Shown here one piece after another: positions 20,304 through 33,062 of a stretch of 33,062 nucleotides of DNA (the first letter of the stretch is position 1; every line of letters starts with the position of its first letter). The stretch spans positions 1 through 33,062 of the forward strand of contig LLYT01000024.1 of assembly GCA_002049545.1 (NCBI GenBank), in the 5' to 3' direction. The notes under the pieces are model-generated. The model did not search any database. It saw only the letters and a program-made list of their open reading frames with translations, and was not told where the DNA came from. The stretch comes from Deltaproteobacteria bacterium tcs-42 (GTDB lineage Bacteria > Desulfobacterota > Desulfuromonadia > Desulfuromonadales > Geopsychrobacteraceae). A program made the position numbers and the translations under genes.

Positions 20304-20450
20304 CGTAACTGTTCAGCAATACCTTGAGGCACCCATTCCAAGGGCCACTTTGCGCCGTCCATGGCCGTTCGACTGTCGCCGTCCGTGGCGACAGACGCCC
20401 TTTCCATGGGTACCACAAGCCCCTATCAGTAGTGGTGGTGAATAGTTACA
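20304..20450 (+). mobile_element. MITE-like element, copy A (147 bp)
   Basis: The element starts CGTAACTGTTCA and ends TGAATAGTTACA, an inverted-repeat pair. It differs from copy B at only 4 of 147 positions. A long inner palindrome (GGCACCCATTCCAAGGGC with GCCCTTTCCATGGGTACC) and a TGTCGCC/GGCGACA stem are included. The flanks AATCGG and AATTGA agree at 4 of 6 positions, perhaps an eroded target duplication. It lies between the PilZ gene and the zinc-ribbon gene and contains no gene. Confidence 0.85.
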
Positions 20451-20568: not shown

Positions 20569-20901
20569 ATGGCCATTAAACGATGTCAAAAATGTGAAGA
20601 ACCTCTCAAGGGAGAATATTGGTGCAGTCACTGCAAAACTGTTTTTAAATGTCCAATTCCCGGCTGTGGTGCTCCCATCAAACCAGGAGCGAGTGAGTGT
20701 CACCGCTGTGGTCTGTTCTTTGACGATTATCTGAATGGTCGGAAAATGTACCGTCGCTGCCCAAAATGTAAAAAGAAACAGGGCCTGTCCGAGCAACAAT
20801 GTCGTTATTGCAACCGTTGGTTCAACTGCCCGACCTGCGGAGAAAAAGTTTCGACCAATACGGTTCTTACCTGTCCCCGCTGTGGAACATCATTGCGCTA
20901 G
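20569..20901 (+). CDS. Multi-zinc-ribbon protein
   Basis: The 110-residue protein starts at ATG 20569 with GGAG upstream. It carries eight Cys pairs: RCQKC, WCSHC, KCPIPGC, ECHRC, RCPKC, QCRYC, NCPTC and TCPRC. These are spaced as four consecutive zinc ribbons of the double-zinc-ribbon type. No membrane helix or catalytic domain is visible. It could bind nucleic acid or a protein partner; the role is not known. Eight bases separate it from the downstream cardiolipin synthase-like gene, so the two are likely co-transcribed. Confidence 0.82.
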   Translation: MAIKRCQKCEEPLKGEYWCSHCKTVFKCPIPGCGAPIKPGASECHRCGLFFDDYLNGRKMYRRCPKCKKKQGLSEQQCRYCNRWFNCPTCGEKVSTNTVLTCPRCGTSLR

Positions 20902-20908
20902 GAAACAC

Positions 20909-22327
20909 ATGCTGACACTGTTACTGGCCACCCTCTGGATATTCTCGCTTCTGTCTGCCGGGCATGCACTGCTGACTAAGCGTGATCCACGTGCGTCGGT
21001 CGGCTGGATTGTTACCTGCCTGGCAATTCCGGGAGTCGGCGCGCTCATCTACTGGGTATTAGGTGTCAACCGCATCCGCACCCGCTCCCGGGAAATTCAG
21101 GAACAAGGGCAAGGGATGCACTGGCTGCATGTCGATCAACCCGCAAACAAGAACCATATTGAACATTTTCCCACCAGTGATACCAGCCGGGCCCTGATCA
21201 AACTCTGTGATACCGTCACCCGCCGCCCCCTCACTTTTGGCAATAAAGTGACCGTTCTATACAACGGCGAGCAAACCTATCCAGCGATGCTGGACGCAAT
21301 CAGCCAGGCAAAAGAATCGATATATTTATCCAGCTACATCTTGAAGCCGGATCAAATTGGCCAACAATTTGCCCGGAAATTGATCGCTGCCGCACAAAGG
21401 GGGGTTGACGTCAGGGTCCTGATCGATGCTTTCGGTGAACTCTATTCATTCAAAAAAATTCGCCATCTCTTCCACGGAACAAAAGTACAGACAGCAACCT
21501 TTCTCCCCCTCTCCCTGTTACGTACTTTACATCTGAATTTAAGAAATCATCGCAAATTATTGATTATTGACAATCGTTTCAGCTTCACCGGCGGGATGAA
21601 TATCCGTGAGCGACATATGGCTATGGCCCGAAATGCTCCAAGACGGATTATTGATATCCACTTCCGCCTCGAAGGGCCGGTCTGCGATCACCTTCGTGAC
21701 GCATTTATGGAAGATTGGCATTATGCAACTGATCAGAAACGTGAACCGTATAACTGGCCACCCGCCCCCATGGTCGGAACTGCCTGTTGCCGCGGGATCA
21801 GCAGTGGCCCCAATGAACAGCATGAAAAGCTCCACTGGATTCTGATTGGAGCACTGGCATGTGCCAAGTCCCATATCCGCATTATGACCCCTTATTTTCT
21901 GCCGAATCGCGCGCAGCTTGCCGCTATCAATGCCGCAGCTCTCCGGGGAGTGCGGGTTGATATTCTCCTTCCGCAACAAAACAACCTCCCCTATGTTGGC
22001 TGGGCCACAAATGCATTACTGTTTGAATTACTTGAACACGACACCCATATCTATTTCCAGCCTCCCCCATTTACCCACAGTAAACTTCTGCTGATCGATG
22101 ATGAATATGCCCTGGTCGGTTCTGCCAATATTGATCCGCGCAGTTTGCGGTTGAATTTTGAATTTAACGTGGAGATTTTTGATCCTGAAACGGTGAATGA
22201 ACTCACCCTCCATTTTGACAAATCTCGCGAAGAAGCTCACAAAATCTCCCTCAAAGATATGGACAAACGTCCCCTGCCCGTACGCTTGCGCGATTCCTTC
22301 TGCCGCTTGTTTTCACCCTACCTGTAG
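20909..22327 (+). CDS. cls: Cardiolipin synthase (phospholipase D family)
   Basis: The 472-residue membrane enzyme starts at ATG 20909 (AGGAA upstream), where two N-terminal membrane helices begin; the longer frame from 20735 overlaps the zinc-ribbon gene in another frame. It has two HKD motifs: His214/Lys216/Asp221 (HRKLLIIDNRFSFTGGMN) and His390/Lys392/Asp397 (HSKLLLIDDEYALVGSANID). This matches ClsA-type synthases, which make cardiolipin from phosphatidylglycerol at the inner membrane. The length is close to the usual 480. Confidence 0.93.
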   Translation: MLTLLLATLWIFSLLSAGHALLTKRDPRASVGWIVTCLAIPGVGALIYWVLGVNRIRTRSREIQEQGQGMHWLHVDQPANKNHIEHFPTSDTSRALIKLCDTVTRRPLTFGNKVTVLYNGEQTYPAMLDAISQAKESIYLSSYILKPDQIGQQFARKLIAAAQRGVDVRVLIDAFGELYSFKKIRHLFHGTKVQTATFLPLSLLRTLHLNLRNHRKLLIIDNRFSFTGGMNIRERHMAMARNAPRRIIDIHFRLEGPVCDHLRDAFMEDWHYATDQKREPYNWPPAPMVGTACCRGISSGPNEQHEKLHWILIGALACAKSHIRIMTPYFLPNRAQLAAINAAALRGVRVDILLPQQNNLPYVGWATNALLFELLEHDTHIYFQPPPFTHSKLLLIDDEYALVGSANIDPRSLRLNFEFNVEIFDPETVNELTLHFDKSREEAHKISLKDMDKRPLPVRLRDSFCRLFSPYL

Positions 22328-22665: not shown

Positions 22666-24039
22666 CTAATTTTTGCCCGGCAGAATGATCTCCACCAACA
22701 ATCCACCGGTGCTTCGGTTGACAGCTGTTATTGTCCCCTCATGGAGCTTTACCGCCCGCTCGGCTATGGCCAGACCTATTCCCGTACCGCCACTTTGACG
22801 GTCCCGCGCATCGGCCACCCGATAAAACGGTTCGAACAGTTTTGCCAAGGCCTGATCCGGCACCCCGCTCCCCTGGTCGGCAACCTGAATCGTCACGTTC
22901 TCTGGGGTGACTGATAAATCAACCGTCACAATACTACCATCAGCGGTGTATTTGACGGCATTGCGGATCACATTTTCCAGAGCCTGCGCCAGCAAGTCAT
23001 GCGACCCAAAATACACAGCCGCTTCTGGAGCCTGATAAACAACTTGACACTGGCGTCTTTCTGCCTCGTAATTCGCATCGACAACCAGATTGGCCAGTAA
23101 CACCTGCAGGTCGATTTCCTCAAAGATAACGTCACTCACACCACTTTCCAGACGAGTCAGGTTGAGCAGTTGGCCAATCATGGTATTCATTCGCTCTGCT
23201 TCCAGTTCAATTCGGCTCAGAGCTTTGTTGTGCCCATCCCGCTTTTCCTGCTGCCGTGCCAGCTCCAGAGCAATCCCCAACCGTGCCAGAGGTGAACGTA
23301 ATTCATGGGAGATATCCCGTAACAGGTTCTTTTGCGTTTCCACCAGAGTTTCAATCTTCCCGGCCATTTCATCAAAATCGTGCGACAACCCGGCCAGTTC
23401 ATTTCTTCCCTTGACCCGATCGCCAATCCGGATCGAAAGATCCCCGCCAGCAAACTTGCGGGTCGCTTGCCGCAAACGGCCAATCGGGGCGGTCAGGGAG
23501 CGGGCGAGGACATAACAGACCACAGCCGTTATCGCTAATAGAAGCAGGAGCTGCCAACCAAGAAATCCATGCGTCACCCCCTTCACTAAATTCCGGGATG
23601 GTGGACGCTGAGGCAGACTGATAGCGACAAAATAAGTCTTTCCTGAAGCCCCCCGAACAGCACTGGCTAATCCGTTTCGAGCTCCCATCATGGGGAAGAC
23701 AACTTCACCCGACTGCATTGCCCGATGCGCCATGTGCTGCATCCGGCGCGGCACCCTTCGGTTGGTCAGCGGCCGCCCATGACCATCAAATAACAACAGA
23801 TGGATTCCCGATTTTTCCAACAGGCGACCGGCAAATTTATCGACCTGCCGATTCCCCTCATACTCAAAAGCATGTATCGCATCTCGCCCGTATTCCGCGA
23901 TCGCTTGCCGGGCAAAATCCTGGTGTGCCAGAGGGGGAAACTCCTGATCTCGAAAGTAGGTCAAAATAACCACTGCTGTTGAAACCAGCAGGATAATCAA
24001 CAGAAAATTGAGAAATATCTTCAGGAATAAGCTGCGCAT
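22666..24039 (-). CDS. cpxA: CpxA-like sensor histidine kinase
   Basis: The 457-residue inner-membrane kinase has a first membrane helix (about 7-28), a periplasmic sensor region (about 30-155), a second helix (about 160-180), a HAMP domain, and a HisKA domain with His245 in RDISHELRSPLARLGIALEL (the CpxA-type H-box). The ATPase domain carries an N-box (ENVIRNAVKYT), a G1 box (DQGSGVP) and a G2 box (GGTGIGLAI). It likely responds to envelope stress and phosphorylates the adjacent response regulator. Its ATG overlaps the regulator stop (TGATG). Name assigned from H-box, gene order and CpxR-type boxes upstream. Confidence 0.9.
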   Translation of the reverse strand: MRSLFLKIFLNFLLIILLVSTAVVILTYFRDQEFPPLAHQDFARQAIAEYGRDAIHAFEYEGNRQVDKFAGRLLEKSGIHLLLFDGHGRPLTNRRVPRRMQHMAHRAMQSGEVVFPMMGARNGLASAVRGASGKTYFVAISLPQRPPSRNLVKGVTHGFLGWQLLLLLAITAVVCYVLARSLTAPIGRLRQATRKFAGGDLSIRIGDRVKGRNELAGLSHDFDEMAGKIETLVETQKNLLRDISHELRSPLARLGIALELARQQEKRDGHNKALSRIELEAERMNTMIGQLLNLTRLESGVSDVIFEEIDLQVLLANLVVDANYEAERRQCQVVYQAPEAAVYFGSHDLLAQALENVIRNAVKYTADGSIVTVDLSVTPENVTIQVADQGSGVPDQALAKLFEPFYRVADARDRQSGGTGIGLAIAERAVKLHEGTITAVNRSTGGLLVEIILPGKN

Positions 24040-24749
24040 CAGGGATGACTTTCGGGGAGGGAGTAGAGATATCCGACACTACGAATCGTTCTGATCCGTT
24101 CGGTCTGGCCCGCGTAATGGCCAAGCTTTTTCCGCAAAGCGCTGACATGCACATCGATACTACGGTCATAAGCCGACAAGCGCCGACCCAGAACTTTTTC
24201 TACCAGATCGTCCCGACTGATCACCTCTCCAGCTCTGGACAACAATACCTCAAGCAAATTAAATTCAACCGAGGTCAACTCAATATTTTCACCGGCACGT
24301 TGTACCATGCGATTGGTCTTGCAAAGAACAACATCCCCGACTTTCAATTCTGCAGATTTTTGAACAACCGAGGTCGTTGGCTCGACCGCCTCGACGCGCC
24401 GCTGAATTGCCCGAACTCGTGCGACCAACTCGCGTGGATTAAAAGGCTTTGGCAGATAATCATCGGCACCCAGTTCCAGCCCGACAATCCGATCAATATC
24501 ATCCCCGCGGGCCGTCAGCATAATCACCGGAATTTTACTGCTTTTCCGGATTTCCCTGAGAACGTCAAAGCCGTTCATTTCCGGCAACATAACATCCAGA
24601 ATCACCAGGTCATATTCTGTAGCAAGGGCCTGTGCAGCACCCTGTTTGCCATGATTAACGGCCTCAACCGCAAACCCTTCACCACTGAGATAGTCGTTCA
24701 GCAATTCACAAAGTTCTATATCGTCATCAATTATCAGGATTCGATTCAT
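24039..24749 (-). CDS. cpxR: CpxR-like OmpR-family response regulator
   Basis: The 236-residue regulator has a receiver domain with the phospho-acceptor Asp52 (LVILDVMLPEMNG), an acidic pocket (IDDD) and Lys101 (PKPFNPREL). A winged-helix DNA-binding domain follows (VISRDDLVEKVLGRRLSAYDRSIDVHVSALRKKLG), closely resembling CpxR. I prefer ATG 24749, six bases after GAGGA, over the preceding GTG at 24752. Divergent from it, three CpxR-type boxes and a CpxP/Spy-like gene support the CpxR name. Confidence 0.92.
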   Translation of the reverse strand: MNRILIIDDDIELCELLNDYLSGEGFAVEAVNHGKQGAAQALATEYDLVILDVMLPEMNGFDVLREIRKSSKIPVIMLTARGDDIDRIVGLELGADDYLPKPFNPRELVARVRAIQRRVEAVEPTTSVVQKSAELKVGDVVLCKTNRMVQRAGENIELTSVEFNLLEVLLSRAGEVISRDDLVEKVLGRRLSAYDRSIDVHVSALRKKLGHYAGQTERIRTIRSVGYLYSLPESHP

Positions 24750-24777
24750 CACAATTCCTCATCTGTTTCTGCTGTTA

Positions 24778-24806: not shown

Positions 24807-24877
24807 GTAAAGAATTGTTAAGTGCAACCGCCTCCTGAAACTTTACATAACTTTACCCGATTTTTACAGCACTTAAC
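24807..24877. promoter_or_regulatory. Three CpxR-type boxes in the cpxR-cpxP intergenic region
   Basis: Box 1 is GTAAA-GAATT-GTTAA (24807-24821, plus). Box 2 is GTAAA-GTTAT-GTAAA (24856-24842, minus), an exact match to the E. coli CpxR consensus GTAAA-N5-GTAAA. Box 3 is GTTAA-GTGCT-GTAAA (24877-24863, minus). Boxes 2 and 3 are 21 bases apart, two helical turns. Confidence 0.8.
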
Positions 24878-24899
24878 CCACACTTCAGATTCTTTGCTT

Positions 24900-24905
24900 T
24901 ATAGT
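24900..24905 (+). promoter_or_regulatory. Candidate -10 of the cpxP-like gene
   Basis: TATAGT lies 22 bases downstream of box 3, with no good -35, as expected for a CpxR-activated promoter. The predicted start of transcription (about 24912) coincides with the left target duplication of the inserted 147-bp element. Confidence 0.5.
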
Positions 24906-24913
24906 AGAATCAT

Positions 24914-25060
24914 CGTAACTGTTCAGCAATGCCTTGAGGAACCCATTCCAAGGGCCACTTTGCGCCGTCCATGGCCGTTCGACTGTCGCCGTCCGTGGCG
25001 ACAGACGCCCTTTCCATGGGTACCACAAGCCCCTATCAGTCGTGGTGGTGAATAGTTACG
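24914..25060 (+). mobile_element. MITE-like element, copy B (147 bp), in the cpxP leader
   Basis: The terminal inverted repeat is CGTAACTGTTCA/TGAATAGTTACG. It is flanked by a perfect 6-bp direct repeat AATCAT (24908-24913 and 25061-25066), the mark of transposition. Inner structure includes TGTCGCC (24984-24990) pairing with GGCGACA (24997-25003) inside a longer palindrome. It has no coding capacity. It sits between the CpxR-controlled -10 and the cpxP-like start, so it should be transcribed as the 5' leader. Confidence 0.9.
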
Positions 25061-25107
25061 AATCATCAAACAACGCCAACACTCACTGTAACCCAAGGAG
25101 AAAAATG

Positions 25108-25674
25108 ATGAAAAAATCGACACTTATCCCAGCATTATTGATCGGCCTCTTGCTATCCAGCGGAACAGCATTCGCCTGGTCGGGGGGGCAAGGAAAAAGA
25201 CATTGTGGCGATTCCTGCGATCGTAGCGGGCAGAACATAACCCAGGAGCGGCACGAGGAGCGAATCGAAACGCGACTGGAGAAAATGGCGGTCATTCTTG
25301 ATCTGACCGAGAAACAAAAAGACCAACTCGAAGATCTGCATGAAAAACAGTTGCAGAATCATCAGGCCATGCGTGCAGAAATGCAAGCCAGCCGGGAAAG
25401 TTTACGTGATTACAAACAAAGTAATGAATTCAATGAATCTGAGTTCCGCGCTCTGGCGCAAAAGCATGCTGATCTGAAAACCGAAATGATGGTTCAACAT
25501 GCACAATCCAGGCAGCAGATCCTGGCAGTGCTGACTCCTGAGCAACAGCAAAAAGCGGAACAACTGAGAGATATGTGCGGTGAAGGTTTCCATGGCAAGC
25601 ATGGTGGTGATCGCGATTGCGAGGGTCACGGTAAACGTGGCGGGCAAGGTTCCGGAAAGCGTTACAGCAACTGA
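25108..25674 (+). CDS. CpxP/Spy-family periplasmic protein
   Basis: The protein of about 188 residues has a signal peptide (MKKSTLIPALLIGLLLSSGTAFA, cleaved before WSGG). It carries two LTxxQ-type motifs, LDLTEKQKDQL and LTPEQQQKAEQL, separated by a long amphipathic helix, as in Spy/CpxP chaperones and the CpxA inhibitor CpxP. The C-terminus is His/Gly/Cys-rich (MCGEGFHGKHGGDRDCEGHGKRGG), which suggests metal binding. AAGGAG precedes two adjacent ATGs (25105 and 25108); I prefer the second for spacing. Divergence from the cpxRA-like genes and the boxes between them suggest it is CpxR-induced and may feed back on the sensor. Confidence 0.88.
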   Translation: MKKSTLIPALLIGLLLSSGTAFAWSGGQGKRHCGDSCDRSGQNITQERHEERIETRLEKMAVILDLTEKQKDQLEDLHEKQLQNHQAMRAEMQASRESLRDYKQSNEFNESEFRALAQKHADLKTEMMVQHAQSRQQILAVLTPEQQQKAEQLRDMCGEGFHGKHGGDRDCEGHGKRGGQGSGKRYSN

Positions 25675-32912: not shown

Positions 32913-32987
32913 CGTAACTATTCACCACCACGACTGATAGCGGCTTGTGGTACCCATGGAATGGGTGCCTCAAGGCATTGCTGAACA
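32913..32987 (-). mobile_element. MITE-like element, copy C, internally deleted
   Basis: On the minus strand it reads TGTTCAGCAATGCC ... CACCCATTCCATGGGTACC ... GTGAATAGTTACG. Compared with copies A and B it lacks the central hairpin, apparently by recombination between two TTCCA repeats. It has also lost the last six or so bases of the other end (it breaks off after TGTTCA). It follows the outer-membrane channel gene. Confidence 0.85.
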
Positions 32988-32995
32988 ATCAGAGA

Positions 32996-33062
32996 ATAGA
33001 ATGGCCCTGTCACCAAGACCAAGCCCTCCGTTGCCACCGGACATGCGGTTTTCCCGCATCCG
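32996..33062 (-). other. Possible 3' end of a group II intron (domains V and VI)
   Basis: On the minus strand CGGATGCGG-GAAAA-CCGCA-TG-TCCG folds as a hairpin with a 2-nt bulge, the layout of group II intron domain V. Its catalytic AGC would lie just beyond the window edge. TGGTCTT-GGTGAC-AGGGCCA downstream can form a domain VI-like stem, and the intron might end ATTCTAT near 32996. The window cuts off the rest, so the intron-encoded protein cannot be checked. Confidence 0.45.

Follow-up and report, generated by a model that had tools for sequence, protein, structure and literature searches.

The question raised by this locus is how a stress gene came to be parted from its promoter by a strongly folding stretch of DNA, and what that stretch may do to the mRNA. 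The window, that is, the whole 33,062-nucleotide stretch that was analyzed (contig LLYT01000024.1 of Deltaproteobacteria bacterium tcs-42), carries a cpxP/spy-like gene together with genes for a cpxR-like regulator and a cpxA-like kinase (Table 1). The layout toward the gene is CpxR-like boxes, TATAGT, GAATCATC, a 145-bp element, GAATCATC again, 37 nt containing AAGGAG, and ATG at position 25105. With very high confidence in both its identity and its position, the element at the stress-gene leader was concluded to be a MITE-like, non-autonomous relative of IS66. The explanation as a whole, an insertion of this anatomy with the transcript start placed as below, is considered probable.

Table 1. 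Coordinates of the features of the stress-gene locus in the window
Feature	Position	Strand	Remarks
CpxR-like box GTAAAGAATTGTTAA	24807..24821	+	motif GTAAA-N5-6-GTAAA; kept in many relatives
CpxR-like box, + strand reads TTTACATAACTTTAC	24842..24856	-	from comparison with relatives
Third, weaker box TTTACAGCACTTAAC	24863..24877	-	overlaps conserved CTTAACCC (24872-24879)
-10-like TATAGT	24900..24905	+	24 of the 29 relatives have the hexamer at the same 20-nt distance from CTTAACCC
Target duplication GAATCATC, left copy	24907..24914	.	8 bp; would contain the transcript start, ~24911-24913 by spacing
MITE with ISBst12/IS66-type ends GTAACTGTTCAGCA / GTAACTATTCACCA	24915..25059	+	145 bp
Target duplication GAATCATC, right copy	25060..25067	.	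8 bp
Ribosome-binding site AAGGAG	25095..25100	+	comparable A/G-rich sites before ATG in relatives
cpxP/spy-like gene	25105..25674	+	189 aa; Pfam LTXXQ, 58.5 bits
cpxR-like response regulator gene	24039..24752	-	Pfam Response_reg, Trans_reg_C; divergent from the stress gene
cpxA-like sensor histidine kinase gene	22666..24039	-	Pfam HisKA, HAMP, HATPase_c

Genes of the locus

For the stress-gene product, the NCBIfam CpxP and Spy models were the best matches at ~46 bits, far short of their equivalog cut-offs, and the matches to Spy and CpxP structures were weak (E of 0.0013 to 0.088). The top NCBIfam model for the regulator was CpxR, with 229 bits against a cut-off of 341; among solved structures MtrA was the best match (E of 2.1e-48), and the CpxR receiver domain was matched at an E of 1.9e-38. 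Two CpxA models ranked highest for the kinase, with 312 and 277 bits and equivalog cut-offs of 800 and 486, neither of which was reached. In E. coli, cpxP is divergent from cpxRA. The present locus resembles that arrangement in gene order, in its CpxR-like boxes, and in a CpxP/Spy-family product, and it differs in that its proteins score below the equivalog cut-offs. To our knowledge, the E. coli cpxP leader contains no element. A longer reading frame beginning at TTG (24934-25674), which would extend the coding sequence into the element, was rejected because the relatives share the ATG start.

Promoter and empty sites

A search with the CpxP-like protein as query matched 45 of 60 genomes, this one included. 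The loci of 29 relatives, one per genome, were fetched and examined, and 15 genomes with weaker matches gave no locus. Up to 330 nt of upstream sequence was compared, with less for L035 (205 nt), L057 (85 nt), and L059 (123 nt); the upstream sequence of L060, which is without a start codon and whose match begins at residue 31, says little.

A sequence-only reading had proposed a TATAGT -10 element with CpxR boxes upstream, and both were found. The boxes (at 24807, 24842, and 24863; two are degenerate) correspond to the CpxR motif as given in the available part of PMC9600279 and are conserved in relatives. The putative promoter of the stress gene should be of the CpxR type. The gap between CTTAACCC and TATAGT is exactly 20 nt in all 24 relatives having this hexamer; a variant hexamer occupies its place in L043 and L048, and none was seen in L058-L060. 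The distance from TATAGT to ATG is 51 to 62 nt in these 24 of the 29 relatives, compared to 205 nt here, and no relative's locus (0/29) shares an 11-mer with the element in the available upstream sequence. Within the genus, the promoter is present and the element missing in all 11 loci that were fetched. L032, whose protein matched best (73% identity), has TATAGTAGAATCATCAAAC in one piece, and in the window those letters are parted by the element and the second GAATCATC; this is the empty-site allele on which the earlier reading had been made to depend. These comparisons give good support to that reading's view that the MITE was inserted past a CpxR-type promoter and ahead of the gene. Transposition of the MITE with an 8-bp duplication is demonstrated by the letters of the site and by the empty sites.

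The promoter block (24842-24905) is strikingly conserved across the family. A consensus promoter scan misses this conserved TATAGT promoter, which has a weak -35, and its sole call in the region (24705-24734) is at chance level.

Extent and family of the element

A terminal-inverted-repeat element followed by the gene start had been predicted and is present, with dimensions that needed correction: the element is 145 bp rather than 147 bp, and the duplication is a perfect 8 bp rather than the 6-bp AATCAT. The outer 16-nt arms of the inverted repeats (24913-24928 and 25046-25061) are 88% complementary, and the TC/GA of the duplication extends the predicted hairpin stem. The element folds at -56.9 kcal/mol, with a z of -4.3 against 200 dinucleotide shuffles. 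It has the features of a MITE, namely, short length with terminal inverted repeats, a constant 8-bp duplication, and multiple copies together with an empty site.

The 8-bp duplications and GTAAC ends were presumed to point to IS66. The left end is identical at 13 of 14 bases to the ISDge4 end GTAACTGCTCAGCA, and the right end is identical at 14 of 14 bases to one end of L095, one of the transposase-bearing places described below. ISDge4 belongs to the ISBst12 group; in the available text of PMC12898284, its ends are given as GTGACTACTCAGCA/GTAACTGCTCAGCA and its repeat as 8 bp. The likeness to ISDge4 lies in the end sequences and the 8-bp repeat (same partial source), and the difference is that ISDge4 encodes a 449-aa transposase, whereas the 145-bp element encodes none. 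Both the GTAACT-type ends and the 8-bp duplication of the ISBst12 group are present, as for a non-autonomous derivative, and the single IS66-type transposase gene that marks an autonomous ISBst12/IS66 member is missing from it. Since 145 bp leaves no room for a transposase, the element was not filed as an IS66 element; since ISBst12-group IS66 elements have matching ends, it was classified as a MITE-like, non-autonomous IS66 relative.

The IS66 transposase (PF03050) gave no match in the element's own genome at an E of ≤0.001, where a draft of 121 contigs may lack repeats. PF03050 was matched in 10 of the 44 genomes of the family, one of the matches (L089) having GTAACTATTCAG ends. The 472-aa transposase of L089, used as the query, found six places in 5 of the 136 genomes of the order, and at an E of ≤1e-40 this ISBst12-type transposase was absent from the own genome and the 13 others of the genus. 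All six places have GTAACTATTC ends. The 8-bp duplication is perfect at two of them (L092 and L094), and at the other four the 8-bp flanks match at six (L091, which is the same place as L089), three (L093), two (L095), and four (L096) positions. Among the papers listed on MITEs, IS66, or ISBst12, in part with Geobacter or Desulfuromonas, none describes such an element for this lineage in its title or the opening of its abstract.

Copies in the genome

Matches to the element within its own genome (2.55 Mb, a draft of 121 contigs) are far beyond chance: there are at least 40, with 40 of 135 candidates scored and the weakest of those at an E of 4.2e-63. The 18-base left end has 99 genome matches at ≤3 mismatches, compared to 1 for the reversed control; a few of the 3-mismatch matches seem unrelated, and the 99 are not necessarily all full copies. 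The number of copies or fragments is estimated at 80 to 100.

At 30 MITE loci, the 8-bp duplication was perfect in 17, had one mismatch in 3, two mismatches in 2, and five to seven mismatches in 4, and was unscorable in the 4 that lie at contig edges. At L016 and L018, the poor duplications are due to a group II intron end standing in place of one MITE end. The 30 copies diverge from their consensus at one to four positions, the copy at the stress gene at two. By crude ORF calls, 10 loci lie between tandem, 6 between divergent, and 4 between convergent genes, 4 overlap a long ORF, and 6 are at edges; the stress-gene copy falls among the overlapping four as an artifact of the TTG frame rejected above.

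A second full-length copy lies in the window at 20305-20449, where the 8-bp flanks differ at two positions, and sits 286 nt ahead of a phospholipase-D-family gene (20735-22327). Among the 13 other genomes of the genus, the element gave weak partial matches in only 2, at 77% over element positions 28-106 (L062, genome G005) and 73% over positions 70-145 (L063, genome G008). These are perhaps older relatives of the MITE.

Group II intron at MITE ends

At the right edge of the window, a shortened MITE copy (32914-32987) runs directly into the 3' end of a group II intron, the two together spanning 32914-33062. The intron end, on the minus strand, was matched by RF00029 in a 183-base search with 25.4 bits and an E of 0.0023, short of the gathering score of 40. 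The genome contains its last 35 to 70 bases 21 times, counting the one in the window; nearly all of these places are at contig edges, and two further matches are partial. Twenty of these loci (L097-L116) were read: 14, again including that of the window, continue into a MITE end from about the sixth base, and 6 continue into other sequence. Judged from these junctions, MITE ends appear to have been invaded repeatedly by a group II intron, which seems to favor them as a target because they are the 3' neighbor at 14 of 20 loci. A search of the assembly for a reverse transcriptase (PF00078) gave no match at an E of ≤0.001, so the body of the intron is either missing or was not assembled.

The leader and its possible effects

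As a rule, transcription begins 6 to 8 nt after a -10 hexamer. On this spacing and the conservation of the promoter, the transcript start likely lies in the left duplication. For a start at 24912, the computed leader is 193 nt, of which 145 nt are element, and it would be 40 nt without the insertion. The earlier claim that nearly the whole leader is element RNA can thus be kept in the form that most of it probably is (~145 of 193 nt, or 75%).

The predicted hairpin leaves 2, 1, and 0 unpaired nucleotides at the 5' end for starts at 24911, 24912, and 24913, respectively, and 3 to 5 for starts at 24909, 24910, and 24914-24916. Among the 24 relatives with TATAGT, 12 leaders were folded; 9 have at least 10 unpaired 5' nucleotides and 3 have 0 to 6. 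The mean unpaired probability from the Shine-Dalgarno site to ATG was 0.54 with the element and 0.53 without it, and the folding thereby gives no support to the altered translation that had been suggested from sequence alone. Because the predicted accessibility of the ribosome site is unchanged, an effect would more likely be on mRNA stability or processing. Altered stability of the stress-gene mRNA is plausible on this model, and a measurable effect on stability or processing is given somewhat less than an even chance.

The mechanism proposed is as follows. A MITE with ISBst12-group ends entered the 5' untranslated region a few bases past the -10 box, generating the 8-bp duplication. With the promoter and ribosome-binding site intact, CpxR-type control should persist. 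The transcript would begin in the left duplication and the mRNA would gain 153 nt of leader, mostly one hairpin starting 0 to 2 nt from the 5' end. The likeliest effect, if any, would be slower 5'-end-dependent decay, which is proposed because RppH and RNase E depend on a 5' end that is single stranded (available part of PMC3997798). The main alternative effect would be cutting of the stem by RNase III. The genome encodes RNase E/G (two matches) and RNase III (one match). The specific form of this proposal, in which a 5'-terminal hairpin "cap" would block 5'-end-dependent decay and prolong CpxP output after stress with the promoter and ribosome site unchanged, is regarded as unlikely; the prediction is not robust, since neighboring starts leave 3 to 5 nt free and 3 of the 12 relatives also have 0 to 6 unpaired 5' nucleotides.

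Alternative explanations

The insertion may simply be neutral, one of many spreading MITE copies that survived here with the promoter and ribosome site unbroken. The chances of this reading are judged to be even, roughly equal to those of any effect. It is consistent with the equal accessibility of the ribosome site with and without the element, with the many copies in varied gene settings at the 30 loci, and with the consensus scan, which called neither a terminator nor a promoter within the element, although that negative is weak evidence because the scan also missed the conserved native promoter. Against neutrality, work on other mRNAs (available part of PMC3997798) leads one to expect slower decay from a hairpin so strong that begins 0 to 2 nt from the 5' end.

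That the MITE supplies a promoter of its own, with the transcript starting inside or after the element and the native promoter irrelevant, has a precedent in the outward promoters borne by Correia elements (available parts of PMC10969869 and PMC2649163). It is considered very unlikely here, as the native promoter is intact and conserved and the consensus scan, which can miss real promoters, found none in the element. The strong predicted fold would also suit a structured regulatory RNA of the stress gene, such as a riboswitch, with no insertion at all. This was contradicted by the empty sites and the copy number and is given almost no credence: the stretch was not seen in the upstream sequence available for the 29 relatives' loci and occurs at many places with 8-bp duplications, no Rfam family reached its gathering score within the window, and TwoAYGGAY on four other copies scored only 26.5 bits (E of 0.83) against a cut-off of 43. 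The reading retained is that of a MITE inserted just past a native CpxR-type promoter.

Relation to known systems and implications

A MITE between a promoter and its gene is a known kind of event, here in another lineage and with another element. In Neisseria meningitidis, mtrCDE is separated from its native promoter by a Correia element (CREE), which is included in the mRNA (available text of PMC2649163); the element has been linked to RNase III cleavage and to removal of the genes from their usual control (available parts of PMC2649163 and PMC10969869). The review PMC10969869, in its available part, names N. gonorrhoeae for the mtrCDE case. The likeness is the MITE placed between promoter and genes and carried in the mRNA, as would be the case here; the element family and the host are different, the reports of RNase III cleavage and changed control concern that system, and the comparison is functional only. 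MITECca01 of a Cardinium endosymbiont is similar as a high-copy MITE, with 169 copies that are mostly intergenic, and differs in being IS982-derived with intact parents in the genome (available part of PMC9769881), whereas the present element resembles IS66 and the assembly yielded no parent for it.

The locus offers a clean case of a MITE in a stress-gene leader with the promoter and ribosome site untouched, and a high-copy element with ISBst12-type ends is hereby described for this bacterium. The conserved cpxP promoter block could be used to probe the regulon. As relatives with the empty site are at hand, the effect of a 5'-terminal mobile hairpin is directly testable. If the proposed stabilization were true, other MITE copies at transcript starts could be portable stability switches genome-wide.
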